Shown here: piece by piece, positions 8,651 to 56,300 of the stretch | Layout of the letters: every line of letters starts with the position of its first letter | Position numbering within the stretch: the first letter of the stretch is position 1 | Virus record (IMG/VR): IMGVR_UViG_3300037558_001138 | Location: 1-59,313 of that record | DNA: 59,313 bases | Reading direction: 5' to 3' (one strand) | Origin: a virus | Notes under the pieces: model-generated | Seen by the model: the letters and a program-made list of their open reading frames with translations, nothing else | Told to the model about the DNA's origin: nothing | Database searches by the model: none | Made by a program: the position numbers and the translations under genes

Positions 8651-10078
8651 ATGTCTGCTGACAACATTAAAAAGCTTCGTTTATACGAAGACACGTTCAA
8701 CAGTTCCTCGATGACTGATGAGAATAGCCTTGCTGCTGCTCTCCTCACTCAACCCGACGTGCTGTCCCCTGTAATTACTCATCTCTCCGGCCAGGAAGAC
8801 AAGCGATTCCCGCTTTCTTACTTGACTGAGGGCATGGGTGCAACTAAGTACATCAACGATATTGAGTACGATTACCCAGTGATGGGCCGTATGAACAAAG
8901 CGTTAGAATGCTTGGATCAAACTGGTACTGGTGCTAACCACACGCGTATTAAGTTAGTGTTTAACGAGCGATGGTTCGTTCGCCAATACATCCTTGAGGC
9001 TCCAGATGGAACTCAAGTACGTGTAATGGACGATCCTACTCCTGTAGCTAATGGCTATGAGTATAGCGTCCAACTCGTTGCATCTGACGGTGTTGGTGTA
9101 ACCGCTACTGCTTTTGAAAACAAGATGTTTGTTCAATTGTACGCTCCGGCTGCAATGAGCGGATCTCGTGGAAACGAAAGCCACTGGGTTGCTCCATCTA
9201 AAATGCGTAATCAAATCAGCTTGATTCGTAAGTCTTACGCATACGAAGGCAACATGCCTGACCGTGTAGTGAACTTCGAATTCAATGTTGGTGGACGCTC
9301 TACTAACCTTTGGTATGACTTTGAGGAGTACCAGCACATGTTGCGTTGGAAGGAAGAGACTGAATATGCATTGTGGTATAGCCAGTACAACCGTGACGCT
9401 AACGGACTCATCCACATGAAGGATGATAACGGTAAGCCGATCTCTCTTGGTTCTGGTGTATTCGAGCAGATTCCTAACGTGGATACCTACTCTGAGTTGA
9501 CTACTGCTAAGATTAAGTCTGTTGTACGGGATGCTTTGTATGGAGCAACTGATGCACAGCAGATGAACATCGTATTGTTCACTGGTATTGGTGGAATGGA
9601 AGAGTTTGATAATGCTATGAAGTCTGAGATTACTGCAGGCTCTTACATTAAGAACACTGACCCAGCTAGCTTTATCAGCGGTTCTGGTAGCAACTTGCAG
9701 TTGGGTGGATACTTCACTTCATACCAGCACATTGATGGGCATACAATCACTGTTCGCCACTTGCCTCTGTTTGACCACGGAGCACGTGCTATGAATAGCG
9801 ATCGTCACCCAGTGACTGGTCTTCCTTTGGAATCTTACCGCATGTGTTTCCTCGATATGAGCACATATGATGGTGAGGCTAATGTTCAGTACATTTCTCG
9901 TAAGGGACGTGAGTTGATGCGTTGGGCTGTTGCAGGTGCTTCTGTACCTCCAGGGTTCGGCGGAAACGCTCTCCGTGCTACTGACGTTGACGGTTCTTCT
10001 GTACACTTCATGAAGGAGTGTGGCATTGCGATCCGTCGTGCTACGAATTGCTTGCTCTTGGACTGCACCAAGTCGTAA
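8651..10078 (+). CDS. major capsid protein
   Basis: A 475-residue protein with HK97-type shell-protein position and crAss-like signatures. N-terminal MSADNIKKLRLYEDTF is followed by LTQPDVLSPVITHLSG. The C-terminal end RATDVDGSSVHFMKECGI, then RRATNCLLLDCTKS, matches the way crAss-like capsid proteins end. Codons look biased toward C-ending Asn and Phe and toward CGT and GGT compared with the flanking genes, as expected for the most abundant protein. It follows scaffold by 22 bases and is closed by a strong terminator. Confidence 0.9.
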   Translation: MSADNIKKLRLYEDTFNSSSMTDENSLAAALLTQPDVLSPVITHLSGQEDKRFPLSYLTEGMGATKYINDIEYDYPVMGRMNKALECLDQTGTGANHTRIKLVFNERWFVRQYILEAPDGTQVRVMDDPTPVANGYEYSVQLVASDGVGVTATAFENKMFVQLYAPAAMSGSRGNESHWVAPSKMRNQISLIRKSYAYEGNMPDRVVNFEFNVGGRSTNLWYDFEEYQHMLRWKEETEYALWYSQYNRDANGLIHMKDDNGKPISLGSGVFEQIPNVDTYSELTTAKIKSVVRDALYGATDAQQMNIVLFTGIGGMEEFDNAMKSEITAGSYIKNTDPASFISGSGSNLQLGGYFTSYQHIDGHTITVRHLPLFDHGARAMNSDRHPVTGLPLESYRMCFLDMSTYDGEANVQYISRKGRELMRWAVAGASVPPGFGGNALRATDVDGSSVHFMKECGIAIRRATNCLLLDCTKS

Positions 10079-25853: not shown

Positions 25854-25993
25854 TGGCACACGTACAAGACCCAAGGCCGGTTGAAAAACTGAAATCTAAT
25901 GCTACCGTTGCTGAACGGATTGCAAAAATTAATGAGTTGGTAGACCTCGTGAACAGCATGTGGTTTACTGACGACGCAGATCATACAGAATGA
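25853..25993 (+). CDS. tiny protein, 46 residues, between fibre and lysis genes
   Basis: The ATG at 25853 overlaps the fibre stop (TAATG) and the TGA at 25993 overlaps the next ATG (ATGA), so this short frame fills the space between two genes exactly. The protein starts MAHVQDPRPVEKLKSNATVA and ends VNSMWFTDDADHTE: a helix with a Pro-containing N-terminus and an acidic tail. No membrane segment. Its function is unknown; it could chaperone the fibre or regulate lysis. Confidence 0.6.
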   Translation: MAHVQDPRPVEKLKSNATVAERIAKINELVDLVNSMWFTDDADHTE

Positions 25994-26496
25994 AACGACC
26001 AGAACATATGAAGCTGGAACTGTACCGTATGAGTACGGGCAAAGACAGCACGCTAGGAACTTTGTTTCTTAGTACAGGTAAAGACAAAAGAAAGTATCTT
26101 TGCTTTACATTAGAGGACGAGCATCGTGACGAGAAGGTGATGGCAGAAACGCGCATCCCGGCTGGTGAATACGAGATTAAGCTCAGAGACTTCGGTGGCT
26201 ACCACCAGAAGTATAGCAGACGTTTTAAGGATATTCACAAAGGAATGTTGTGGCTCCAGGACGTTCCAAATTTTAAGTATATACTGATCCACTGTGGCAA
26301 TACAGATGAGGACACTGCTGGTTGCTTGCTTACTGGGTATGGGCCAAAGCGAGTATCTGGCGGAGAGTTTGAGTTATACAATAGCACCCAGGCGTATTTT
26401 GATGTGTACCCGCCTGTAGCAAACCATCTAGCGGATGGAGGTACCGTAACAATTGAAATCAAAGACTTCGATGAAATTCCAGAACGGTTGGGGTAA
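25990..26496 (+). CDS. DUF5675-type protein, probable lysis-associated enzyme
   Basis: A 168-residue protein. The core ETRIPAGEYEIKLRDFGG, then HKGMLWLQDVPNFKYILIH, CGNTDEDTAGCLLTG, is the DUF5675 signature, with a His and Cys arrangement (ILIHCGN, AGCLL) reminiscent of L,D-transpeptidase-like folds. DUF5675 genes often occupy the endolysin slot beside holins in phages of Bacteroidota, as here. No signal peptide. Activity on peptidoglycan is inferred from position and resemblance, not proven for the family as far as I recall. Overlapped on both sides by tiny genes. Confidence 0.7.
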   Translation: MKRPEHMKLELYRMSTGKDSTLGTLFLSTGKDKRKYLCFTLEDEHRDEKVMAETRIPAGEYEIKLRDFGGYHQKYSRRFKDIHKGMLWLQDVPNFKYILIHCGNTDEDTAGCLLTGYGPKRVSGGEFELYNSTQAYFDVYPPVANHLADGGTVTIEIKDFDEIPERLG

Positions 26497-26626
26497 CCCA
26501 AATAAGCATGCAGATAAATTTATCTACAAGCTTCGTATCGGCACTGTTACAGTGTTCGACTTTATTATTGACTTGAGTTCTAAGTTGTACTCAGTTACTT
26601 TTTTCAACTTTACAATTAAGTTCTAA
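26471..26626 (+). CDS. tiny protein, 51 residues, overlapping lysis genes
   Basis: This frame starts with ATG at 26471 inside the end of the DUF5675 gene and stops at 26626, where its TAA overlaps the holin ATG (TAATG). Protein: MKFQNGWGNPNKHADKFIYK followed by a hydrophobic, aromatic beta-like part (VTVFDFIIDLSSKLYSVTFF). The exact fit between neighbours and the coupling to holin support expression. The Phe- and Ile-rich half could associate with a membrane. Possibly a lysis regulator; family not recognised. Confidence 0.6.
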   Translation: MKFQNGWGNPNKHADKFIYKLRIGTVTVFDFIIDLSSKLYSVTFFNFTIKF

Positions 26627-27072
26627 TGGACAAACTCCGCGACACCAAACTAGGGTCGTGGCTAAAAGAAAAAGCGCCTAAGATTTTTGAGACAGTAGCC
26701 GATGCATTACCCGATGCCGGACTCTTAGGTGTAGTAAAGAACCTTGTAAACGCAGACAGTAGCCTTAGCCACGAACAAAAATTAGAGTTCGAACGTCTTG
26801 AGCAACAAGAGCGTATTGCTTTAGAGGAAAACGTTACCAAGCGTTGGACAGCAGATGTAGGATCTAAAAGTTGGCTGGCTAGAAATGTCCGTCCTTTAAT
26901 CGTACTGTCTTTGACATTTATGTTTCTTGTATTCATTCTACTGGATACCCTTGCTCCTGTGGAAGTGCGGGATGCTTGGATTAAGATGTATGAAACTATT
27001 CTAATGACTACAATTGGCGGCTACTTTGTAGTGCGCACTGTAGATAAAAATCAGCTGCCATGGCAACGCTAA
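26626..27072 (+). CDS. holin, GTA/3TM-like
   Basis: A 148-residue protein. The N-terminal 70 residues are amphipathic and charged (WLKEKAPKIFETVADALPDA; HEQKLEFERLEQQERIALEE). Next comes RWTADVGSKSWLARNVRPLI, a hallmark of 3TM-type phage holins, then membrane segments at about 89-109 (LIVLSLTFMFLVFILL) and 122-139 (ETILMTTIGGYFVVRTV). It would permeabilise the inner membrane at lysis time. Neighbours support this: a DUF5675 candidate lysin upstream and tail genes downstream. Its last 13 bases overlap the next gene. Confidence 0.75.
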   Translation: MDKLRDTKLGSWLKEKAPKIFETVADALPDAGLLGVVKNLVNADSSLSHEQKLEFERLEQQERIALEENVTKRWTADVGSKSWLARNVRPLIVLSLTFMFLVFILLDTLAPVEVRDAWIKMYETILMTTIGGYFVVRTVDKNQLPWQR

Positions 27073-33914: not shown

Positions 33915-34195
33915 GTTTGCGTAGGTGGTTTAAAGAAGAATGGAAAGATGTCCGTACGGGCAAGGCGTGCGGGCGTAAGTCCGCTAAAGGAGGATCTAAA
34001 CGTCCTTACCCTTATTGCCGACCTACAAAACGGGTAAACTCTAAAACGCCTAAGACTAGAGGCGAGATGTCTAAGTCAGAGAAGCGTAAAAAGGTTAGTG
34101 AAAAGATTCGAAAAGGTAACCCTGGGGGTAAGCCTACACGTGTGTCTGCAGTAAAGCGTCGGAAAAAACGTACTACTACTAAACGTAAACGGTGA
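33911..34195 (+). CDS. small very basic protein 3, DUF5872-like
   Basis: A 94-residue protein starting MSLRRWFKEEWKDVRTGKAC. It continues GRKSAKGGSKRPYPYCRPTK, a signature I associate with the DUF5872-type small viral proteins (WxDVxxGKxCGRxSAK, then YPxCRPxKRV). The C-terminal half is Lys/Arg-rich (KRRKKRTTTKRKR). The two Cys and surrounding residues could bind metal. Its stop TGA overlaps the ATG of the secreted protein gene by one base. Probably virion or nucleoid associated; function unproven. Confidence 0.65.
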   Translation: MSLRRWFKEEWKDVRTGKACGRKSAKGGSKRPYPYCRPTKRVNSKTPKTRGEMSKSEKRKKVSEKIRKGNPGGKPTRVSAVKRRKKRTTTKRKR

Positions 34196-36330
34196 TGAAA
34201 GGCTTTTTACTATTTCTAGGGTTCTTGCTACCAACATTTTTAATGGGGCAAGGTTGGGTTCTTGTATCGCTACAGACTGATTTGTATGCCCCAGAAACTA
34301 GCTGGGTCATTGTGCAAGACAATAATGTTTTAGAAGAGTCGCCTTTGTATCCTACGGAGTCGTACAATGAAAAGCTCGTGTTTTTAGAGCCGGGTAATTA
34401 TGACTTTATTATTTATGATAGCTTTGGAGATGGTATCTGCTGCGCGTTTGGAGAAGGGTACTTTACATTATCTAATGCATGTGGTTTAGATACTACTGTG
34501 TACGACTTTGCTAGCTCAGAGTTGGTTTTACCTTTTGAGGTTTTACCATGCCCACCTCCTATTTTCGGGTGTAGCGATCCTCAAGCCGTTAATTATAATC
34601 CTTGGGCTAACGTGTCACAGCCCTGTGCTTATCCTCCTCAGCCATGTGGAGAGGGAGAAACAACCGTAATTGTTACAGTAACGCCTGACACCTATGCAGG
34701 TGAGATTAGCTGGGGATTACAGTCTAACGGGGTTGAGGTCTTGTCAGGCAGCGAGTACAGTATTGTAGGCTTGCCTATTACATACGATGTATGCGTATCA
34801 GTTGGGGATACTCTTGTTTTAGAGGTAATGGATACTTTCGGCGACGGTATGTGCGGCAGCTGTTATGGGGGTGTAGACGGTAACATTTCAATAACCACTT
34901 TATGCCAAGACACTCTATACTATGTTGGAGATACTTTGCAATACTCTACTATTTCTAGCGGGTTAATTGGGATTGACGAGTGCGTGCTAGAAATTGCCGA
35001 AGGTTGTACTGACTATAATTTTACTGAGTACGATCCTTTAGCGCTAATAGACGATGGGTCTTGTGTTACTGAAGTTATTCTTGGCTGCACTATACCAGGC
35101 TCTTTAAACTTTAATCCAGACGCTAATACTCTAGAGACTAACCCTCTTTGCATGAGCCAGCTAACTCTTACCGATGGGGCAGGAGATGGCTGGTTTGGCA
35201 GCTGGTTAGGCGTCGTTCAAGGCGACGAGATTTTTGGTCCATTCCAGATGGGGCCTAATGATGGCGTAGAAGAATCCTTCTATCTCCCACTCTACTCCGG
35301 CGAACCTATTCAAGTCTACTTTTTTACGGGAGGTAATGCCGAAACTACTGCCGCTCAGTGCGGATTTTTGCTGACTAGTCCTCAAGGCATTTTCATGCAG
35401 GCGGGTACTAACCCCTGGAATGATGCTATTAAGAAGTTTCCCTATACCTATACAGGGGTTCCTTTCTGCAATGATTTGTGTGTCGAAGCGGTAGTTGGAT
35501 GCATGAACCCCCAAGCCTGTGATTACGATTCGCAGTCTAATGTAGAGGGGGACTGTACGCTTCCTATTGAGTTCTACAACTGTTCTAACGAGTGCATTTT
35601 TGATACTGATAATGATGGCGTTTGCGATGAGCTTGAGGTTGTTGGGTGTATGGATGCTACTGCCTTCAACTACAACGAACTTGCTAGTGACCCAGGAGAA
35701 TGTGAGCCATTTATTTTTGGGTGTATCGACCCCACCCAATATAACTATGACCCTGGAGCGAATACGGATAACGGTAGCTGCTTTCCTTTTGTGTACGGAT
35801 GTACTGATGTACTCGCTGTCAACTTTGATGAGGACGCGAATACAGACAACGGAGGATGCATTGAAGCTGTCCTCGGGTGTATGGATCTTAATGCCTATAA
35901 CTTCGAGGTTTCCGCTAATATAGCGAATAACGGTACATGTTTGTACGATGCAGGATGCATTACCGGACCAGGGCAACCTTACTGGGCAAACGACTCTTGT
36001 TATTCTTGGGTTATTGAAGTAGACCCTTTCTGCTGTGACACTGAGTGGGACGGAGCTTGCCAAGAGCTACATAACTACTGCGAGTTAGGCTGGCCTACTG
36101 ACGTTACAGAGATTGAGCATACGATTCGGGTGTACCCTAACCCAGTCCAAGACTACCTTACTATTGCCTGCGCTAATTTGCAGAGTGTTGAAGTGCATAA
36201 CAGTGTAGGACAACGGGTTTACCAAGGCACCGCTAGTACGCTTGACACTAAAGCTTGGTCTTCAGGAGTATACCACTTAACTGTACGTGCATACTTGCGG
36301 TCCTATCACATTAAAATTGTAAAGCCATGA
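34195..36330 (+). CDS. secreted Cys-rich repeat protein with T9SS sorting domain
   Basis: A 711-residue protein with a signal peptide (MKGFLLFLGFLLPTFLMGQG). The ATG at 34195 is chosen over the GTG at 34192. The mature part has three modules with a D-FGDG or GAGDGW core and about eight Cys repeats of the type GC-D--A-NYDP-A-TDNGSC. A calcium-like DTDNDGVCDELEV and an FCCDTEWDGACQELHNYC motif also occur. The last 65 residues (from about 646) fit the type IX secretion sorting domain: VYPNPVQDYLTI, VEVHNSVGQRVYQG, SSGVYHLTVR and a terminal KIVKP. It should cross the inner membrane by Sec and be attached or released at the surface by the host T9SS. Confidence 0.82.
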   Translation: MKGFLLFLGFLLPTFLMGQGWVLVSLQTDLYAPETSWVIVQDNNVLEESPLYPTESYNEKLVFLEPGNYDFIIYDSFGDGICCAFGEGYFTLSNACGLDTTVYDFASSELVLPFEVLPCPPPIFGCSDPQAVNYNPWANVSQPCAYPPQPCGEGETTVIVTVTPDTYAGEISWGLQSNGVEVLSGSEYSIVGLPITYDVCVSVGDTLVLEVMDTFGDGMCGSCYGGVDGNISITTLCQDTLYYVGDTLQYSTISSGLIGIDECVLEIAEGCTDYNFTEYDPLALIDDGSCVTEVILGCTIPGSLNFNPDANTLETNPLCMSQLTLTDGAGDGWFGSWLGVVQGDEIFGPFQMGPNDGVEESFYLPLYSGEPIQVYFFTGGNAETTAAQCGFLLTSPQGIFMQAGTNPWNDAIKKFPYTYTGVPFCNDLCVEAVVGCMNPQACDYDSQSNVEGDCTLPIEFYNCSNECIFDTDNDGVCDELEVVGCMDATAFNYNELASDPGECEPFIFGCIDPTQYNYDPGANTDNGSCFPFVYGCTDVLAVNFDEDANTDNGGCIEAVLGCMDLNAYNFEVSANIANNGTCLYDAGCITGPGQPYWANDSCYSWVIEVDPFCCDTEWDGACQELHNYCELGWPTDVTEIEHTIRVYPNPVQDYLTIACANLQSVEVHNSVGQRVYQGTASTLDTKAWSSGVYHLTVRAYLRSYHIKIVKP

Positions 36331-37367
36331 GATTAGTAACCACTCTACTGCTGATTGCTTTACCTTTTATGGCATCGGCTCAAGTCTTTGATAATTTCTT
36401 TAAGTACTCGACTTTGTATGCAGCAGCTAATGGCAATAACTCTTTAGCTACAACGGAGGCTTACTCTATTGACGGTAACACAGTTCAGTATGATTTGCTT
36501 GAAACACCTTTTGATTACAGCTTTACTTTAGGTATTCGCAAAATTGCTCGTTTTGGATACGAGAATAGGGCTAACGCATTTTATGATGGTACTGAAAAGA
36601 CTTATGGCGATGATGCTACTATTGGAAAGCGCCAAGGTTTTGAGTTTTTATCTGAGATTGATTATCGAAGGCAACAAGGTCGGGCATTTGTAAACCAGCA
36701 TCACTTTCTAAGGTATGTGTCCAAGTGGTGGCTTTCTAAAGTAGAGTACTTAGAGGATGGCTTTGCAGATGTAAAATACGTGGAGGGATCACAACGGTTC
36801 CGTATCAACAGTCAAGGCAAGCTTTCTTTTAACATTGGTATTGCCCAGCGTATTTCAGAAGCATATGGCTACGACCCCATTGGAGAGTGGGTACAAGCAA
36901 ATAATTCTGTGCACTATACAACACTAGCTTTACAAGAAGGCTATACAGTAAACTTTGCTACACTAGAGTTTCTTAATCCTGCGGGAGATGTAGTAGCTAA
37001 TAGCGTAGACGTTTGGCGAGAGGTGGTTATCCCAGAGGTTTTAAGCAATTACGCTTTAAAGCAGCGTTCGGCATTACAAGCGCAGTGGTGTCATAGTGCG
37101 GTATTGGGCTATGACTATTACTACAACAGTAAAGAAATGTGGTTGCATACCTGGGGAAACTTCTATCCTTACCACCTAAATGTCAATAACGAATACTCTT
37201 ACAATAACTTAATTGGTAAAGACACTTGGCTTGATTTATCCGTAGGGGTAGTAAGCGGGTGGCGTATTACTAGAAGCTTAGGAGTATTCCTAGAAGGAAC
37301 CTATAACCGGTATTGGAATCGGTCTTGGCATAACTTTTCTGCGGGTGTAAACTATGTAATTTATTAA
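36327..37367 (+). CDS. outer-membrane beta-barrel protein
   Basis: A 346-residue protein with signal peptide (MRLVTTLLLIALPFMASAQV) and a long chain of alternating hydrophobic/polar strands with aromatic girdle residues. Examples are FDYSFTLGIRKIARFGYENR, HFLRYVSKWWLSKVEYLEDG and RSLGVFLEGTYNRYWNRSWH. It ends FSAGVNYVIY, a C-terminal aromatic beta-strand as used for BAM-dependent insertion. Its ATG overlaps the stop of the T9SS cargo gene (ATGA), so both are made together. I recall similar barrels in marine phages of Bacteroidota. Function may be surface remodelling, receptor masking or a partner for the secreted protein. Confidence 0.75.
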   Translation: MRLVTTLLLIALPFMASAQVFDNFFKYSTLYAAANGNNSLATTEAYSIDGNTVQYDLLETPFDYSFTLGIRKIARFGYENRANAFYDGTEKTYGDDATIGKRQGFEFLSEIDYRRQQGRAFVNQHHFLRYVSKWWLSKVEYLEDGFADVKYVEGSQRFRINSQGKLSFNIGIAQRISEAYGYDPIGEWVQANNSVHYTTLALQEGYTVNFATLEFLNPAGDVVANSVDVWREVVIPEVLSNYALKQRSALQAQWCHSAVLGYDYYYNSKEMWLHTWGNFYPYHLNVNNEYSYNNLIGKDTWLDLSVGVVSGWRITRSLGVFLEGTYNRYWNRSWHNFSAGVNYVIY

Positions 37368-37657
37368 TGATGAGCAAAGTGTTGAATGAGGATACCAGTT
37401 TTTCCATCAGTATAAAAACGCTGCTGGGTATTGGGGCGGGGATGGCTGCTTTAATTAGCGCGTGGTTTGTTTTGCAGGCAGATATTGAAGAGGCAAAGAA
37501 GTTGCCTGTGCCGCCTGATCCGGAAATTACACGCATGGAATTTGACATGAAAGACAAGCTTGTGCGTCAAACAATCATGTCTACCCAAGAAGACGTAACT
37601 GAAATCAAAATGGACATCAAAAGGATAGAAGAAAAAATTGATGACCTAAGAAATTAA
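37367..37657 (+). CDS. membrane-anchored coiled-coil protein
   Basis: A 96-residue protein. After a polar N-terminus comes one membrane segment (LLGIGAGMAALISAWFVLQ, about 19-37), then a Pro-containing hinge (KKLPVPPDPEITRMEF) and a long charged coiled coil (TQEDVTEIKMDIKRIEEKID). This topology fits an inner-membrane spanin-like or lysis accessory protein, or an anchor reaching into the periplasm. It starts by TAATG overlap with the barrel gene. No Cys or lipobox is seen. Confidence 0.6.
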   Translation: MMSKVLNEDTSFSISIKTLLGIGAGMAALISAWFVLQADIEEAKKLPVPPDPEITRMEFDMKDKLVRQTIMSTQEDVTEIKMDIKRIEEKIDDLRN

Positions 37658-37661
37658 TATC

Positions 37662-38027
37662 ATGAAATTCTTTACCGCATTTTTCGCTACATTTGTTATC
37701 GGTGCCGCATTGCTGTCAACGCCAGCAACAGAGTATACCGAAGAATCATATGCTGGGCTGTGTGTTGTCGAGTTCAACGCCCAGTTCAACTCTCAGAATA
37801 GTGTTCCTTGGATTGAGGAACTATCGGACTGCAATGGACGTCGAGTTGATATCGCGGCTAGTCCTGACCAGCAAACAGAATATAAGATTGTAGTAGTACC
37901 TACCATCATCATTTTTAATGAAGGCGCAGAGGTCAAGCGCTATCAGGCTAATATCATGATGGAGCTAGAAGTTCAGAAAGAAACCATTCAACACGATATC
38001 GATGAAATTATAATGAGTGACTTCTAA
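37662..38027 (+). CDS. exported thioredoxin-fold protein lacking CxxC
   Basis: A 121-residue protein with a signal-like N-terminus (MKFFTAFFATFVIGAALLST). Thioredoxin features follow: strand LCVVEFNAQF, then the cis-Pro loop VVVPTIIIFNEGAEVKRYQA (P80). Where thioredoxins have WCxxC this protein reads FNSQN (N43-S44-Q45-N46), so both catalytic Cys are replaced. Two other Cys (34 and 57) remain. The protein cannot perform normal dithiol exchange through that motif. It may act as a binding or scaffold protein in the periplasm. TAATG links it to the basic gene that follows. Confidence 0.7.
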   Translation: MKFFTAFFATFVIGAALLSTPATEYTEESYAGLCVVEFNAQFNSQNSVPWIEELSDCNGRRVDIAASPDQQTEYKIVVVPTIIIFNEGAEVKRYQANIMMELEVQKETIQHDIDEIIMSDF

Positions 38028-44317: not shown

Positions 44318-47300
44318 ATGGCGGAGGAAAACCAAAAGCCGGTCAACCTGGGCGATCTAGGTACGGCATCATCCTCAGACATTCGCAAAGCTTTAGAAGG
44401 ACAGCCTAGTCCTGTGGAGGCGGATGATTCTGTAGATCCTACACCCCCGACGGAAACGTCTGCTTCGACTCCAGCAGTCGCAGGTACTGATGTTGATGAA
44501 ATTCTAGGTGGGAATGCTTTTAACCTGTCAGAAAAAGAAGACGGGACTTATGAGTTTTTCAATCCTTACGACAGTAATCTAGACGTAGACTTAGATCAGT
44601 TTGAAACGCAACGTCGGCGTGTGTCAGAGGATAGCATGCTTTCTGGCATTTTAAATGGGGTAGAGGGGCTTGAAGAAGGGTTTACCTATGGAGGTATCCA
44701 AGACACTGTAAAACGCAGTGAGGAAGCTCAAGGTGTAGTCAATAAAATGAAGAATGGCTTGACTCAGCTTGTAGCTGATACAGGCATTAATGTAGCTCAA
44801 GGGTTTGGGTCGCTGCTGTATGGGGTTCCTAGTGCTATTGTAAATGGGGACATTACTAAACTTTATGATAATTCTTTAGCTAATAACTTAGATAAGGGCA
44901 CAGAGTTTTTAGACGAGTTCTATAAAATTAAACGAGGTGGGGATCAGAGTACTGGTCAAAAAGCGGCTAACTTTTTATTCGATGACGTAGCGGGTGGTGC
45001 AAGTTTTGTTATGGGTGCTATTGCTACAGAAATGGCATTTACAGCACTTAGTGCGGCTACGTTTGGCGCTGCCGCTCCTGCGCAAGCTGCTGCTACAGCC
45101 GGTCTTGTAGCTCGGGGTACACGCTTAGTACACAAAGCTATGCAAGGGGGCAAGGCTTTAATGTCTGGTAGTTTGGTAGATGATGCGCTAAGGGCTAGCC
45201 GAGCTTTAGGAGCTAAAGCTACTAGGGAAGGTGCGTCTGCTGCCTTACAAACTGCGGCTCAAGCTGCTCGTACTCCTATGGCTATGCAGGCAGCTGCTCG
45301 TGTTTCGCGACAACTTATTACAGGCGCTTCGATGGAGTCAGGTATGGAAGCGCGACATATGCTTAATGCCGCAGTCGAGAATCAAAAACATCAGTACGAA
45401 GATCTAAACGGCAAAGGTTCATTTACTGAAGAAATGTCTGGTCAATTTCGCGAGGAAATTAGCGGATACGCAGATGGGGTTTTTGGTACTAACATGGCTT
45501 TAGTTGGAGCATCTAACATGTTAATGTTCCCAAAGCTTTTTGGGGTCGGACTTCGCAAAGGCATGAGTACCGCTAAGTTTATTGACACAAGTAAACTTTC
45601 ACAAAGAGCACGAGCGCGTCTAGCTAAAAATATGGGCGTAGTAGAAGGTAAGTTACCTCGTATGGTAGATGCTGCTAGGGGCAATACTATGGGACGTATT
45701 GTTGGACGAGGAGGTCAGATTGGGCGGGTAACTGCAGCCAATACTAAAAATGCTTTATATGAAGGCTTTATTGAGGAGGGTGGACAAGGAGCTATCAGCC
45801 GCTCTACCGAGGACTATATCTCTAAACGTTATGATCCAAAAGGGGTAGAAGGCACAGTTAGATTTGCCGATAGCTTTTTAGAAGGGCTAAAGGGAAGCTA
45901 CACGACCAAAGACGGCTTTAAGGAAATTGGTATTGGAATGCTTTTAGCGTTTACCGGTGTTCCTATGTATGCGCGTAATCAGAGTACGACTGCTTCATCT
46001 GAAAGCGAAACAGCAGGTAAGCCTGAAAAGAAGTGGAAGTGGCAAATGATGGGGGGCTATGCGGATCAGCGAAATGCGTTGATAGCTCAGGATAAAAATA
46101 TGGATGCCATTATTGCTTTATCTGAAAAGCATGGAGATGTCGGGGGCATACTGAAAGCAGAAATTTCTAATATGAATAGACAGAATGTCTTGCAGTCTGA
46201 GCAAGACGTTTCTATCCAAGAAGGGAGGTTTAAAGAAGCGAAAGATGCAGAAGCTGAAATGATCTTTTCGCATGCTGCAACCAAAGTCGTTACAGGTCGG
46301 TATGAGCAATCTATTGAGGAAGCTCAGCAGGTAATGGATGAGATGACAGATGAGGAGTTGCGCGAGCAGCTAGGGCCTGATGCAAAAAATATGACGGGGG
46401 AAGACCTGCGTACTCACCGTAATAAAGCTATGGAAAGCTACCGTGCTCGGATGGACCGTGCACGCCAGGCATACGAGAGAGCTGGGGAGGTATATCGCGG
46501 TGCTGATCCCGATATCCATACTGGAGTTGCGCACATGCTTTACATGGTTCAAGAGAAGGATGCTCGTGAAAAAAAGATTGCAGAAGAAATGGCGGGGGCT
46601 ATTGAAGGCATGAATGAGGGTCAGATTCTTGATTTTATGCAAGCCACCAGAGACTTGAATAATAGAGATGAAGTACTTGGCGAACTCCTTACTTTAATCA
46701 ATCGTCGTAAAGACATTGATAAACAACTTGCGACTAAAAAGTCACGGGGTATTATTAAAAATATTGACCCTAAAAAGCAAGAGGCACGAGATGCTGAAGT
46801 AGCGATTTTGCAGGAATCTCAGCAGGAGAACTTAGACGCCATGCAACGTCTAATGGATGTCATGTCAACAGCTAATAATGTTGATCGTAATAAGTATGAT
46901 TTTTCTAGTGTAGACTTCTTAGAGGGTTTAGCTCTCTTGCACCAAGAAATCCAGTTGCAACAAACTCAAGGACAGGGTATTCAGAAAGCAGACATTGAAC
47001 AACTGTATGCAGACTTGCAAGCAGTTTCTGCTGACAGAATGGAGCTTATCAATAATTACAATGACTTTATTAGTCCCGGAGGTGTTCAGCGTTTTGAAGC
47101 GCGAATGATTGGGTCTATTGAGCGATTGGCAGATATGTCTCCTGAAGAACGCAAGGAATCTCGTCAAGAGGCTGCTGCAAAAGAAGATGCAGAAGCCACA
47201 ACCCCAGACTCTTCGGATACTCCTCAAGCACCAGCTGAAGAAACTCCAGCAGCTCAAAGTTCTGACCCTACTGTACCGGGTACTCCACCAACTGATGACG

Positions 47301-50300
47301 GATCAGGTTCTTTTGAAGCGCCTCCTGGTTCAGACGTAGGTCCGGATACTGCGGGATTTGGGTTTCCTGACCCAACTCCAGGTAATGTGGGCGTTCCAAA
47401 AGGCGTTCCAGGTAATATGGGACTTGGAGAGCAAGGCACTGTAGCAGCTCCAACTGAGGTTCCTACAACAGAGCCTGCGCAACAACCTGCACGATCGGGT
47501 GTTGGCGAGGTATCTTTTCAATTTACCAACGCTAACAATAGCACTGAATCCAATGGCAAAAGCCCATTAAATGAGAAGTACTTAGCAGGGTTGAAGAAAG
47601 TAATTTCTGGGCTACCTGTAGGGACTGCTCTTGTAGCTTCACAAAATCCAGATGGTAAATTTAGCATTACTGCGGACGGCGTGCTTTTAGCAGAAGTTAA
47701 AACTTTGCCTACTGCAATTAGGAATCTCTTGAAAACAGAGTCTTCTGTGCAGCTGGTTACTACTTCAGAAGTAGGGCGCAAGTTCGTTGGCGGAGAGGCT
47801 GTAAATGAAATTATAGACGGGGAACTTGTTTCGGCAACCCGAAAGAAAGGACAACCAGCTGTAGAAAGTAGAGTTAACAAAGTTCTACCAAACGGTGCTC
47901 AGGATATTAAAGGCATGAATATTATGCCTAATACACACCATGAGTTATTAGACGTGGCAGGTGTAGACCCTATGGGTAATGTGCAGAAGGTTACTCCGGA
48001 TGCTCGATTTGCGGGAAACCTCTTAGTGTCAACTGTAGATTCTGCAAGCAAGCAGGAAGCTTGGCATTCAGTTCAGCTGGATGCTATGGGGTCAAAACGT
48101 GCTAATCAAATAGTAGACTTAATTGATGCTTTCAATCAGTTTGCGGTTAGCAGAGATGCCATGACTCCAGAACAGGTGCAGCTTCTTAAGACATTTGCAG
48201 ATGCTGCTGATATTAATTTAGATAAGCCTACTTCAGAAGTAGCAAAGCGTATGCGAGGCGAGTTGCGTAGTATGTTAGGAGTCCCCTATGTAAGTAATCA
48301 ACGCAAGAAGTTAAAAAAGTCCATTAGCAATCCTAGTGCTCGTAGGCCTTTGCTTGCAATAGAACCGTTAGGCAAAAAGCAAGAGGGTATCCAACTCATG
48401 AGTTTGCATATGGGAGAAGAGAACCATTCCCACGATAAAGCAGGCAACCGTGTTAGTGCTGGTTCTAAGATTGCTGCCATCCACTTAGCCTCGCACCGAT
48501 TAAATGCTTCGACGCAGGGTAACGTACTAGTTGCAGATGGGGATGGCAATTTTGAGGCTGTAGAGATGCGTGACATGGTAGACCGTTTTGGTAGCTTTTC
48601 CTACCGCATGCCCTTTGTAGTAGATGGTAAAATTTATAATACTCAGTTCTCTACTGTAGAGGTAGGTCTAGAGCCTATGGTTCCGGTTCCTACTGACCCT
48701 CGTACAGATAGGGCAGAAGTAGAAGCTCCAACTGCTGATCCAGCTCTTTTTATCGATTTAGATACTCTGCCTACAGACCTATCAAACTTTACTTTAGATA
48801 CAGATGATTATTTACCTTCTTCCTCACAGGATGCTGCTTCTACAGATCCTATGGAACGAGCAGGGGCTTTGTATGAAGTTCCTGGGCTAACATCGCGCCA
48901 GCTAAAAGATGGGTTAAATTTTAGTACTGGGGTAATGGCTCGTGCTTTCTCAACGCACCTGCGTACAAAAAACCGTTACAAGCCTGTATCGCCAGACTAC
49001 TTACGCCGTACGGTAAAGGGGTACTTAGAAGCGCAACTTGCTCATTATAAATCTTTGAAGCAAGAAGGTCCGGTTGTACAGATTGTTGAGGCTCATGAAG
49101 CCTATCTCAGTGATAAGAACTTTAATCCGTTGATGGATTTAGCTATGGTTTCGTTACTGAACCAGGCAGAGGGTAGTGTGCGGTTACGGGGCAAAGGCGG
49201 CTTGGAGGAAGCTTTAAAAAATATTGGTAGTTCAGATCCGTCTGCAGCAGAATTAGATGAGGCTAGTCAAGCAGAAAGGGAGTCGAACCCTATGGCTGCA
49301 TTTGATGAGAATTTTGCTTTTGGAGTGGACCCTAATAGCACTTTGCGTTTAGAGTCAAAGCTCTTACTTATGGGGTTAGTAGATAAATATGGTGTTAGCG
49401 CAAACTCTTTGGGACTTGCAGGTCAGAAGTTTATCAACTCAAAAGATTTACAGTCTAAACTAAGTTCTGTTCTTGCAGGTGTTGACCCTAGCTATGATAA
49501 AGTTAAAGAACGTTTAGAAGAGTATGTAGCTACTTTTCCCCAGTTCCAATCTGTTTTAGATACTCTAAGCGATCAGTATGCGTTAAGTAGTTTACCTCCG
49601 GGTTTAAAAGCAAACTCTACTGCTAAAGAGTACGCTAAAATTCAAAAGCGTGCCTTGTCTGTCCAAGACATGATACGCAATCAGTTTGTTGTCTTTGCAT
49701 CAAAAGAGTCAACAACGTTTGATAGCGCTACTATCGTTAAGGCAAAAGCCCAGAATGACCCTAATGGTACACCTGCTGAGATTAAAATTTGGAATAGCAA
49801 CTCTCGTAATATGCGGGAGCATGTAGGTAATGACATGCGTTCTACATTAATAGAACGAGGGTTTTTTGACTTAGAGGGAAAACCAGTAAAATCTAAGTTT
49901 AAGGCTGCTTATGATCAGCTTATTAAAATTTCTGAATTGCCTAAGCCAGATCAAGCTAAGGCTTTAGCTGCTGTGCTTAAAAAAGAATTTGGCATTGCTG
50001 TTCCAGTAGTTGCTTTAACGAGCGCAAACCTGACAAAGACTAAAAAGGGCGCCCCTGTATTTAAAGGCATTGAGAAAAGTTTAAATAATCCTAAGAGTCA
50101 GGCAGGAGTATTTGGGCGCTTTAGAAATGCTTTGGGAGTACTGTCAAAGAAAGACCTTCCTTTAGAAGATATGATCAGTGATACTGATGGATATGGCAAA
50201 GATTTGATTAATTTCTTTGTAGGGCTAGCAGACTATAGAGAAAACTTTATTCAAAATAGTAGCAAGGATGGTGACAATAAAGTTCGGTACCAGTTTAGTG

Positions 50301-53300
50301 CCCCTAAACTAATTCATCAAATCCTGCGTGATATAAAAGCTGGAGCTGTACAAGACCCTTTAAGCGTTTTGCTTGGTAAGCGGTTTGCTCAGCTAAGTCA
50401 AGAAAACCAGCGGCTGATTGGTTTAACTTATCTCAGCGGCATTAAACAGGATAAAGGCAGAGAACGCAACTTCCACGCAATGCAGGTGGGAGATAACATT
50501 ATGGCTCAGCTTGCTTTTTACGGCAATCGAAATACTTTCACTCAAAAGAACTCTCGCGGTGAAGTAGTTATGGTGTCGAAGTTTTTGATGCCAACACTAG
50601 CAGATAAACAAACAATGCCTATTCTGCAGGCGCCTGCTATGAGCGCAAAACAAGCAGGTATTGTTTTAAATGAGTCTGTGAAAGACAAGGCATGGGAGTC
50701 GCTTAAGTTCAAGGATGTAGTACCCAATGTAAAGGGAGCATATCAAGGAACTTTGAAAGATAGCATTGATCTTGAGGTAGATCGTATTATGAGTATTCAA
50801 TCAGGTAACACTGAGGGAATGACTGCTGCACAACGTGTGGCGGTAGGCTTTGTGATGATGCCCGGTTTAAATGGTTTAGCAGAAGCTTTTGTTGAGGGGA
50901 AGATTAGTCGGGCAGACTTTAGGGATAAAGTTCACAGTAAGGCTGTAGGAATGTTTGAAGAAGCTATGGATGCAGATATCCAGCATATGCTTCGTGAAAC
51001 GAAGGGTACTATTTGGGAGGAAACAACTAAAAGAGATGGCCCTAAAACGATTGGCAAATTAAATCAGTTTAATGCTTCTAAAGGAAGGAGGAATACGCCG
51101 TCAGACTTTGTCAGGATGCATGTTGCTCCTGGTTTAGATTCTGTAAATAAGGGAGGTATGCATAAGGTTGCTTTTGTAGCTTACCTCGCTAAGTATTCTA
51201 TGGATAGCTTAAATGTCCGCACTGGTATCATCATGGATACTATGGGCGATCCGGGGGCCTTTGTAAAAACTGACAAGGACACGGGTAAGATTAAGCAGGC
51301 TAAAACAGCTACTAATTTAGGTAAGCGCTTTGCTTCTCTTATCGCACCAGGTACTTCTATCCCGTTTGTTTCTTTTAACGACCGGAATGGTAATCCAGTA
51401 TCTAATGAAGCGGTGAACTTCTTGGTTATTCCTTCTCGCATAGTATCAAAAGCAACACATTATGACTACCTAGAAAAGATTGGGCAGTCTGCTGATGAGT
51501 TGTCTATGCAAGAGCATTACGATAGTGCAGATGCTGCAGAGTATACAACTGTAGAAGAACACTTAGGTATTCTTTATGCTCAAGGTAAAATTTCAAGCTT
51601 TGAGTTAGAGGGTATCCTAGGTAAGATTGCTAAGGGTAAAAAGCTAGAGAAGGCAGAGCTTGCTTGGTTTCAGCCTATGAAACCTGTAACTACAGCGCGT
51701 GTGGGAAATCACATGTTGTATGTAAAGAGCGCTTCTTTTCCGTTAGTACCCCAATTAACCCAGGGCACAGAGCTAGATAAACTGCGAGTGTTTATGGAAG
51801 GCAACAATGTCCAGCGTGCTGCATACGATAGTGCAGTAAAGTTGGGCAATGAGTGGGCAGATCCAAATGACAAACAAGCTACAGAAGATGAGAAAATGAT
51901 TCCTGTGCATGAAGGTGCTAATGTCGTAATTGATGAAGAGCCTTTACGTATGCGCGTGATTCGTAATGTGAATCGGAAGTATATGCGTATCCAGCAAGAG
52001 GTACCCACAAGCAAGACGAATGAAAAGGTACACGGTTCTCAAGTAGCTAAGCTGCTTCTTGTGGATCTTATTGATGCAAAGTTCGAGTTGAATGGGGAAT
52101 CTTTGACTGGGCGTGATATGCATGGGAAGTACTTGCAAGCACGTAGAGATGAGCAAGATGCTCGCTTGCGGTTATTTTCAGAGCGTTATGGGTTGACTAT
52201 TGATAAGGAAAATAACCTATATCATACCCCAGAATCGAAGCAAAAGTTTGCTGAACGTATTCAAGAAGAAGGCATTAGTAGGGGCTATGGTCCAAATGAA
52301 TTGGCACACCTTTACTTTGACGATAAGCTAAATGCTTTTACAACTCCTTTAGAAGCAGGACCTAGCTCAGAGCGTATTGAGAACCTTATTAAAAGCATTG
52401 TCTTTAGTGAGGTATATGAACCTAGTATTGAAGGCTTTAGCGGCCCTATACGTCCAGAAGTAGGCCTGAAGACGCTTGATGATAAGCTTGTTGACCAAAG
52501 TGATATCATGTGGCTTAAGAAAGGGGGCAAAAAGATTTTCAAGGGTAATAAGCTGAAGGTTGCTAAGAAAGGGCAGCTGGACCAGATCATTATGCCGTGG
52601 AAATACAAGGCATCCCTTGAGAAGTACATGGATGATGACGGTAATATTAATGCAGATGAGTTGCCACCAGAGTTGCTGAAGACTTTCGCCTACCGTATCC
52701 CCGGCCAGCGTAAGAGTTCTTCGGCTGCTTTTGAGATTGTAGGGTTCTTGCCTGCAGAGTATGGAGATACTTTAATTGTAAATGAAGAGTTGGTAGGACG
52801 CGTTGGGCAAGACTATGACATTGATAAAATGTTTGGGTTCTTGTACTCGATTGAGCAGGCAGAAGATGGTATTATTTCTATAAATAGAGGAGACGATACT
52901 ACCAAGAATCGGTTAGCAAAGGCTCGCAATGAGCAGGTTGATATTTATATCGCTTCTATGGAAGCTATCGACATTGCTGTGGAAAGGGCGGTTCATGCTC
53001 CTGTAACCGATGGGTACGCGAATAGTCTTGCGGATCAGATGGACCAGCTTTTGCACGATGATGCTGTTTTAGGATTGCCTATGAGCCAGTCTTATAACTC
53101 TCGTAAAGCAAATGCTGCTCGTAGTGCTAAAAAGTCTATCGGAGTATTTGCTGTTCACAACGTGTTGCATGCGCAGCTTCAGCAATCGTTAGCTGCGAGT
53201 CGCAATGGTGGGATAGAGTATATGCCAGAGGGCTTCGTTACTATTTTATCAAAGCCAGGGGCAGAAAAACCTACAGAGAATACCAATTTCGGGGATATGG

Positions 53301-56300
53301 GTATCCATGATACTTCTTTTATCCTAGATTATAAGAATACACCAGTCGCAGGGAACCGAAGTGATCAGTTTAGCCGTCTTCTAAATCATGCGGTAGACAA
53401 TGAAAACAACGGGTTACTAGACAAGCTAGGTATTACAGAAGATACTTGGTCATTGTGGACAGGTTTAACTCATATGGGCTACAACCAAGAAACAATTGGT
53501 CTTCTTGTAGCCATGCCTGCTGTTCAAGAGTACTTGACTGCTAAGTCACGTAGCCGTCGTTTAGGGGATTCTAAAGAACTAGAAGTAGGAATTTTTATTG
53601 ACCAATATGCCAGACAGCTTGTAGATAGTAAGACTGGTAAGGTAGACTTAGAAAGTATGCCAGCTTTAGACAAAGAGTCTATGCTGGGAATGGCTCAAGG
53701 CGTTTCAGAACTATCTGAAAAAGAGCAATCTATGATGAATTTCCAAGCGTTATTAGCAGTAGACAAGCTTGAAAATCTTAGGAAAGATGTGGCAAAAGTA
53801 CAGAACCATATGCAGCTCGATACTAAGCGTCCAAAAACAATGGTTGCTTTACAGGTAGCTATTGCTAAAATGGAAATGCCTAATAAAACTGAGTCTAATG
53901 GAAATGTGCTGCCTCTGGATGAGGCTATTGGAGCAACAGGTGCGACGGTTAGCGGTCAAGTTTCTGGATTAGTTGCAAATACTGCAATGACTTTGATGAA
54001 TCTGCAGCAAAACATGCTTCCTATGTCGGATGTCATGCAGCTGGTAAAGGACTTCCAAAAAGCAGAGTTATACGATAGCGTTGAGAATAGTATTACCACA
54101 CTTGTAAAGGGGGCAAAAAGTGCTACTTATGCGCTGTTTACTGAAAAGATTTCAGGTAAGACCAGCGAAGAGATTCGTTCTGAAGCTCATGACATTGATA
54201 CAGGCGGCATAGCTACGCGTTTGATTAAAGCTCGTCAGAATAAAGCTGTAGCGAATAACCCCTTTATTAAACAGCTGGTAGCTGTAAATGCGCCTAATAC
54301 TTATCCGCACATAGAATTTCCTGGGGATAGGCAATTGGAGTCAGATCCAATTGAATTACAACGAGCGTTTTTAGATTTACTACGCAGCTCTGATCCGGAA
54401 GTCAAAGCTTTTGCAGAGTATCTAGTATCGTATGCATTAGCTACTAGCGGAGGTCGTTTAAAGGCAAGAGGGTATTTGAAGTATGTACCTGCTGAATACT
54501 TACAGTCAAAAGGTTTAGGAGATACGGTAAATACTGGGGCAATATCAGAAGTCCTTAACAATCCTTCTAAGATTACTGAGATTGTACGCCATAACTCTGA
54601 GTTAGCTCCAAGATTCAATAAATTTTCAGAAGCTGGAATTAAACTAATACAAGGAGTTCCCCATCAACGTGTAGGCAGTGCTTCTTTTAAAGGACATGTA
54701 CGCGTGGGTAATAAGTTATACGCTCCTACAGAAGACCTGCCGGGCCGTGACTTAGATGGTGTAATGGTCCAACAGTTAAAAGTTGTAACTGAGCTAGGGG
54801 ACTATTTAACGGATGAGTACTCTACTCGTTCTCAGCCTAGTGACAAGCTTCCAACTGCGAAACGACCCAAAGGCCCTTCTTTGTCAGAAAGTCCAAATAT
54901 GCCGGTGCAGTACTACGACTCAATTACTGATGCTGTACCGCCAGAAATGGGCAGTTTTCCTGAAGGTGTGACAGGTCCCCCAGCTAATATGGGCTTAGAG
55001 GGGCCTAAGAAAAAAGTGAATGATGAAGTCGTACGATCTGATAACCCAAATAAAATGCCTATGGGCATTAAAGAGTTTTTGGCTATTTCAGAGTTACGTA
55101 ATAACCCTTTCTTACAAGAGTTAGCCAGAACACAGGAAGCGCTGTCTCCTGAAGATCGCGTCACTGTTGTTGTAAGCGACGATTTGCCAGGTAAGGGTAA
55201 GTACAATGCGGGAACAAACACGGTAACTCTGCGCCGTGATATGATAAACGATTCTCGGGCTGTAACGCATGAAATGATTCATGCCTTTACTAGTTTATCT
55301 ATTAAGGTTGTTCAAGGGCAAGCTAAAATTTCTGATCCTAAGAAGAAGGCAGAAATGGAGGCGGCAGTAAACGAGTTGAAGAAACTCTTTAAAATTGTAC
55401 GTAGCCCAGAGTCCATTGCAAAAATGGGGTTGAGCTTTGCAGGTCAGCAACAGGCAATGAGAGGCTATAGAGCTTTCCGTTCTCAAAGAGACGGTAAGAC
55501 TTTAAGTGCCGAAGAGTTGTTGGACGTAGAGTTCTTCAAAGAAAACTTAGATGATTACTACGCTTTTGTAAGCTTAGAGGAGTTTGTAGCAGAGTCGTTT
55601 TCTAACAAAGCTTTTGCTGAAAGAATGTCTAAGCTGTCGTTGAACCGTAATGAAACTTTCATTGACAGGTTTATTGCAGCTGTAAATAAAGCTTTGATGG
55701 CTTTAGGCGTAAACTTTGGTAAAGACACTGAGTTCTTAAGAGAAGTGTATACTGTAAGCATGGGCATAGTAGACATTCAAACAGGCGGTCAGATTGGTTT
55801 GATACCTGGTCAGGATATACCGTCAAGCGATTTGATTGATGGTGTAGCAGCTGCAGACGTTGCCGGACAGAATCTGAGAGGGGTAGATCAGATGCAGGCA
55901 TACAAGGAAAAGCGTATTAGACAGTTTGAGGAATTGAAGAGTCGCTACAATGGTAACAGGGAGTTTGTACGTAGAGTAGAGGCTAGGCTAGTGCAAGAGC
56001 GCAAGGACTTACAAGCGCTTACTGATGATAGTGTAGAGGTAACGCCCGACTATATGCTGTCTGTAGGTCAAAGAGAGCTAGACTTTGCACGTCGCACTAT
56101 TGAGAATGTCGACTCTACTGACCCGCAGATTGACATGGCATTAAGTGCCTTAGAGAATATCTATAGTGTGGTCGAGTTCTACGATAAGAGTAGGGATATA
56201 TTAAGAGACCCTGCGCTGGTGGATGTGGCTACTGCTTTACGTAAAGAAGCATCGGAGTTAAAAGATAACTACTTGGATAAAGCCCGCGATATCTTACGAC

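Follow-up and report, generated by a model that had tools for sequence, protein, structure and literature searches.

Why would a bacteriophage encode a protein that carries the sorting signals of type IX secretion (T9SS)? The question arises at positions 34195 to 36330 of the window, by which we mean the whole stretch of DNA that was analyzed, 59,313 nucleotides in length, where a preliminary description had recognized a phage gene for a T9SS cargo protein whose product might mask receptors, block superinfection, or coat progeny. The open reading frame (ORF) proves to be real, lies on the contig of a marine crAss-like phage, and encodes two signals of a type A substrate. What the preliminary description missed is that the gene belongs to a conserved cassette of four genes, which in many phages lies beside lysis genes, a context that adds release or lysis to the candidate functions.

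The contig and its phage

The contig, a virus record of 59.3 kb, encodes a crAss-type major capsid protein (8651..10078, plus strand; PF23898 Crass_capsid, 2.7e-84), along with portal (P22_portal, 4.9e-11), ring (CrAss_Ring_3_4, 1e-6), and further virion proteins. The capsid protein identifies the phage, and because crAss-type capsid, portal, and ring proteins are all present, it is a crAss-like phage (Crassvirales). The plus strand also encodes a DUF5675 protein (25990..26496; PF18925, 3.9e-25), which lies near the cassette in relatives and 9.8 kb from the cassette's beta-barrel gene in the window, and a holin with three transmembrane (TM) segments (26626..27072; phrog_3427 holin, 4e-17; GTA_holin_3TM, 0.0046). 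At 44318-59104 there is an ORF of 4928 amino acids whose two end segments have no Pfam match; giant genes also precede the barrel gene in other cassette phages.

The cargo ORF (34195..36330, plus strand) is intact, beginning with an ATG at 34195 and ending with a stop codon at 36330, and belongs to a run of same-strand genes. Its start overlaps the preceding stop codon by 1 base (TGATG), its stop overlaps the next ATG by 4 bases (ATGA), and its GC content (0.450) is ordinary for the window (0.436). A host gene captured by chance, or a chimeric contig, with no role in the phage would be compatible with the presence of the cargo's repeats in marine Flavobacteriales genomes, but the overlaps at both ends, the ordinary GC content, and the recurrence of the gene order in independent contigs make this most improbable. 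In one such contig (L002), the cargo and the barrel are 85% identical to those of the window and have the same flanking phage genes. Because the gene context recurs in this way, the contig is not a chimera, neither at 34.2-36.3 kb, where by the preliminary description's own account one would refute its reading, nor through host contamination, which the recurring context refutes.

A cargo protein with two sorting signals

The 711-amino-acid product consists of a signal peptide, three beta-sandwich-like GDG modules, approximately seven Cys-rich repeats, a single CC-WD-C module, and, directly C-terminal of the latter, a type A T9SS C-terminal sorting domain (CTD). The signal peptide (MKGFLLFLGFLLPTFLMG; coding region 34195..34248, plus strand) has a predicted cleavage site before Q19, and the resulting hydrophobic leader (MKGFLLFLGFLLPTFLMG|QGW) is conserved in relatives and fits the signal-peptide Q-rule described for Bacteroidota (PMC10367356). 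By motif, a Q-rule site is present in 26 of 27 cassette cargos and in 32 of 32 cassette barrels; all signal peptides and TM helices reported here were called by motif and inspection, not with a trained predictor.

The CTD (residues 646-711; 36130..36327, plus strand) exceeds the curated cut-offs of two profiles, both of which align with residues 646-702/710: PF18962, at 32.3 bits (cut-off of 27; E value of 1.2e-7), and TIGR04183, at 27.8 bits (cut-off of 23; E value of 1.8e-6). A profile constructed from the phage CTDs of the cargo family, moreover, retrieves T9SS CTDs of solved structure, namely 8glk_D, 8glj_D, and the gingipain CTDs 5hfs, 5ag8, and 5ag9. Both signals are thus as the preliminary description had proposed, and the match of the C terminus to sorting-domain profiles, on which that proposal hung, is significant. 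By virtue of the two signals, the cargo is predicted to be a T9SS type A substrate, whose export is well supported at the level of sequence.

The body of the protein was said to contain calcium- and Cys-rich repeats, and the second part of this claim holds: there are 40 Cys residues and about seven repeats of the form GC-D-x-x-N-Y...C (also written GC-D-x-A-x-N-Y). The part concerning calcium is only suggestive, with a weak match to TSP3_bac (E value of 0.33 for the cargo and 0.002 for its best relative) and a structural resemblance confined to one module. An AlphaFold2 (AF2) model is weak for the cargo as a whole (pLDDT of 62.9, pTM of 0.32), its better-modeled regions being the beta-sandwiches at residues ~20-120, 155-260, and 318-425 and the CTD. 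Residues 156-260 resemble the Ca-dependent carbohydrate-binding module CBM60 (2xfd, Z score of 7.7 with an rmsd of 2.9 over 86; 2xhh, Z score of 6.9), a suggestive likeness that we treat as a lead only, the Z scores falling within the range of common arrangements. Matches that Foldseek returned for the entire cargo, otoferlin and synaptotagmin among them, were set aside, having query TM-scores of ~0.1 or less. A 285-amino-acid antisense ORF inside the cargo gene (35206-36063, minus strand) is most likely a mechanical mirror of the composition of the repeats.

Marine Flavobacteriales genomes encode proteins with repeats of a similar kind, and in tblastn searches of cultured phages, the repeats were the only part of the cargo to find matches, in S-CAM3 and AG-345-P14. 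Together with the likeness to CBM60, the repeats in Flavobacteriales would suit a surface adhesin, a Cys-rich and possibly Ca-dependent carbohydrate-binding cargo that sticks infected cells or debris to polysaccharide, algae, or other cells and thereby aids spread; given Z scores of common range and a weak model of the cargo, however, we regard such a role as unlikely.

A conserved four-gene cassette

The cassette comprises the genes for the T9SS cargo, an outer-membrane beta-barrel, a small protein termed TMcc, and an exported thioredoxin (Trx)-fold protein. Searches recovered relatives of the cargo at 15 loci and relatives of the barrel, the product of the next gene, at 33 loci, in a common neighborhood. 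Among the 29 viral loci with enough flanking sequence, a tagged cargo is present at 27, TMcc at 28, and the Trx-like protein at all 29, the cargo gene being positioned either upstream of the barrel gene or downstream of the Trx-like gene. There is some redundancy among the loci, which amount to 21 barrels at 90% identity; of these, 15 are accompanied by a type A cargo, 5 by a cargo with a different, compact tag (see below), and 1 by none. The viral contigs compared may be incomplete, as is possible for that of a distant phage (L048/L049) that has TMcc, barrel, and Trx-like genes and no tagged ORF, an arrangement suggesting that these three may work without a cargo. When cultured phages were searched by tblastn, neither TMcc, nor the Trx-like protein, nor the barrel (even at an E value of 10) found a match.

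Of 20 related records, four besides the window have Crass_capsid; many of the rest are fragments, and two, of 122 and 165 kb, are large contigs without it, so the cassette probably extends beyond the crAss-like phages. Cassette-bearing phage contigs have also been binned into Flavobacteriales metagenome-assembled genomes (MAGs): L102 (G148:C32), L103 (G389:C16), and L050 and L104 (both G021), the last two of which may be one phage, since L050 breaks off within a cargo gene and L104 begins with the barrel.

In the window, the cassette is located between virion structural genes, and the protein of the Synechococcus phage S-CAM3 that contains similar repeats is annotated as a "virion structural protein." Both observations would be expected if the cargo and barrel were structural parts of the particle, as decoration or at the tail tip, with a CTD that is a mere leftover. 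Against this, the Q-rule signal peptides route both proteins out of the cytoplasm, the site of virion assembly, and the CTD is kept or swapped for a tag that hosts use rather than lost, so that we hold a virion role to be quite unlikely.

The barrel, TMcc, and Trx-like proteins

The gene following that of the cargo (36327..37367, plus strand) encodes a 346-amino-acid protein with a Q-rule signal peptide. Its AF2 model (pLDDT of 73.5, pTM of 0.67) has about 12 strands and aligns with Tsx (1tlw; Z score of 13.9, rmsd of 3.9 over 199) as well as with NalP, NanC, OMPLA, and many further outer-membrane barrels, and, in view of the strands, the signal peptide, and these alignments, an outer-membrane barrel is well supported. 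Barrels of most cassettes are 48-58% identical to the window's copy, the closest being 85% and the most distant 33% identical. In three of them (L010:116-1213, L011:4165-5262, and L013:3182-4309), the Q site of the leader is preceded by a lipobox-like LASCG/LVACG; these are possibly lipidated variants.

Searches of Pfam and of PDB sequences with the barrel returned nothing above cut-off, and there was no match in NCBIfam at an E value of ≤0.1, although a model of the same library, PorV_fam (NF033709), does detect the PorV of hosts. A PorV-like shuttle is thus not supported by the profiles, PorV family included; the absence of PorV from among the top structural matches to the barrel excludes nothing. 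Nor was there a match in NCBIfam or Pfam to PorP/SprF, a family for which the search had no positive control. The barrel is rare in bacteria: of 396 Flavobacteriales genomes, 2 encode it, as does a Winogradskyella MAG. The contigs in question have a phage-like gene content, with genes for amidase, holin, M15, or ribonucleotide reductase-like proteins, and are phage contigs in the bins.

TMcc (37367..37657, plus strand; 96 amino acids), which is conserved in the cassette, has a single predicted TM helix and, after it, a charged tail resembling a coiled coil, and its only matches to PHROGs are weak and of unknown function. The layout resembles that of an i-spanin, and in phage lysis cassettes with spanins, too, late genes for envelope proteins neighbor those for holin and endolysin; for Crassvirales, cell lysis is said to rely on spanins and lysins from late genes (PMC10136315). 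The present cassette differs in adding an outer-membrane barrel and a predicted T9SS-exported protein, the TMcc tail of ~55 amino acids looks short for bridging the periplasm in the manner of an i-spanin, and inspection of the cassette identified no o-spanin lipoprotein as a partner.

The last gene (37662..38027, plus strand) encodes an exported protein of 121 amino acids whose thioredoxin fold is indicated by alignment and by matches to Pfam Thioredoxin (2.9e-4, below the cut-off) and TIGR01068 (3e-5). The catalytic CxxC is absent from the aligned cassette members, and the protein is likely redox-inactive. In this protein and its homologues, the C-terminal end is nearly always SDF or a close variant.

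Two C-terminal tags and their exchange

Exactly one tagged cargo occurs in 19 of the 20 related phage records. PF18962 has a single match in 12 records and never more than one, and 7 of the other 8 have, at the end of a homologous cargo, exactly one copy of a compact tag of 38 amino acids (consensus, KKLIAITDLLGRP...KLLFFIYDDGTVEKKLIK). Record G020 has neither a PF18962 match nor the compact tag, and a partial hit to the latter in G004 (E value of 0.0099), inside a frame of 3501 amino acids, was discounted. The tag is also seen, as DLLGRETKG...LFYIYDDGTVEKK, in L070-L099 and G022-G171 (e.g., L071:1492-2718 and L093:1099-1614).

The compact tag forms the extreme C terminus of otherwise unrelated proteins of marine Flavobacteriales, many of them with Q-rule signal peptides. 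It is present in 56 of 148 sampled Flavobacteriales genomes, at 1-48 copies each, and all but one of these genomes are of ≤2.0 Mb. Models of Pfam and NCBIfam do not detect it, and its assignment as a type B or type C CTD was rejected, having no NCBIfam match. Comparison of its profile with that of the type A CTD recovers the expected register at a probability of only 10%, and for this reason we do not claim it as a shortened type A CTD. Homologous phage cargos carry it in place of the type A CTD, and genomes of the host type encode SprA, from which we infer that it is a T9SS signal; it is probably an undocumented sorting signal. Our survey of a library of open-access papers found no report of either the compact tag or the four-gene cassette.

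Tags have been exchanged between close relatives: L009 and L015 encode barrels that are 94% identical and cargos whose bodies are 54% identical and whose tags differ. On the barrel tree, few changes suffice to account for the tag labels; L009 was left out of this tree as a near-copy of L015, so that the clearest swap is that pair itself.

T9SS of the probable hosts

SprA is encoded in 11 of the 12 Flavobacteriales genomes that hold relatives of the cargo, which are genomes of the host type and may not include the host of the window phage. In F. johnsoniae, type A CTDs are handled by PorV (PMC12618676), and this protein is present in all 4 of the host-type genomes tested, 3 of which come from assemblies holding cassette contigs. 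Use of the host T9SS, as the preliminary description had it, is supported in part: the machinery exists in probable hosts, and what the phage gains from it is a matter of interpretation, to which we now turn.

Probable timing and function

Lysis-type genes occur within ~6 kb of the cassette at 21 of 29 loci. The set, verified with Pfam and PHROGs, comprises 3-TM holin, holin 4, amidase, M15 peptidase, and the associated DUF5675, the last counted by context only. In the window and in L009 such genes lie at 7-10 kb (the window's holin is 9.3 kb from the barrel), and in several relatives the cassette is preceded by a giant gene instead of lysis genes. Since the cassette sits with structural genes and, in most of the relatives, near those for holin and endolysin, we think that it acts late. 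Proximity to lysis genes is not proof, as phage late genes are generally grouped, and it could reflect merely a shared late block.

We propose, with a probability of roughly one-half, that the cargo is exported through the host T9SS and that the cassette acts late in infection in remodeling the outer membrane and surface for lysis or release. The signal peptide would first direct the cargo through Sec to the periplasm, from which the T9SS translocon (SprA), with PorV, would export it by way of its type A CTD, and it would finally reside either on the infected cell's surface or in the medium. TMcc is predicted to occupy the inner membrane, the Trx-fold protein the periplasm, and the barrel the outer membrane, with the cargo outside. 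The remodeling would help lysis and the release of progeny, possibly by weakening the outer membrane or by keeping released virions from sticking to debris. A fuller version, in which the four products may interact as a new kind of envelope module of marine Bacteroidota phages that opens or reshapes the outer membrane late in infection, host secretion places its outermost part, and the tag is exchanged to suit the host, is put forward only tentatively.

The main rival to lysis or release is surface exclusion, in which a displayed cargo that the barrel holds or positions might cover or block the phage receptor and so prevent superinfection, leaving the resources of the cell unshared. Export to the surface is likely from the sorting signals, and the bodies of the cargos vary more than the barrel does, as expected of a part that faces the receptor. 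Superinfection exclusion, however, usually requires early expression, and the cassette genes sit with structural and lysis genes rather than with early genes. We view exclusion, which has already been proposed for the T9SS cargos of Cryophage (PMC7468147), as possible but on the whole doubtful.

Discussion

The preliminary description called phage-borne T9SS cargos little described, which is fair, although they are not undescribed. Type A sorting domains encoded by Cryophage (Bellas et al. 2020, PMC7468147) were likewise proposed to employ the host T9SS; those cargos, an endoglucanase, a GH39 protein, and a PA14 protein, number three per genome and occupy variable islands, whereas the family of the window phage has one Cys-rich cargo per genome, in a conserved cassette. 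The crAss-BACON cluster 2 (PMC6949934) again involves crAss-like phages with T9SS sorting-domain proteins near head genes, but these are gut phages with BACON repeats, and the part of that report that concerns them describes no cassette of barrel, TMcc, and Trx-like proteins.

Like T9SS type A substrates of bacteria (TIGR04183/PF18962; e.g., RgpB and RemA), the cargo combines a Sec signal peptide with a type A CTD; it differs in being phage encoded within a dedicated cassette and in belonging to a family in which 12 of 20 related records have the type A domain and 7 the compact tag. The order of the genes, a cargo followed directly by an outer-membrane barrel, recalls type B substrates with an adjacent PorP/SprF shuttle (PMC12618676), but the tag of the phage cargo is of type A and the phage barrel is without an NCBIfam match.

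Little is known of how phages of Bacteroidota cope with a cell surface that the T9SS builds, or of the ways in which they breach or coat the outer membrane. The conserved cassette, in which a T9SS substrate accompanies an outer-membrane barrel across diverse marine phages, offers four specific genes with which to test the matter, and the exchange of tags between close relatives is a natural experiment on which tags a host accepts. If confirmed, the compact tag would be a sorting signal that existing models overlook and would mark much of what small-genome marine Flavobacteriales secrete.
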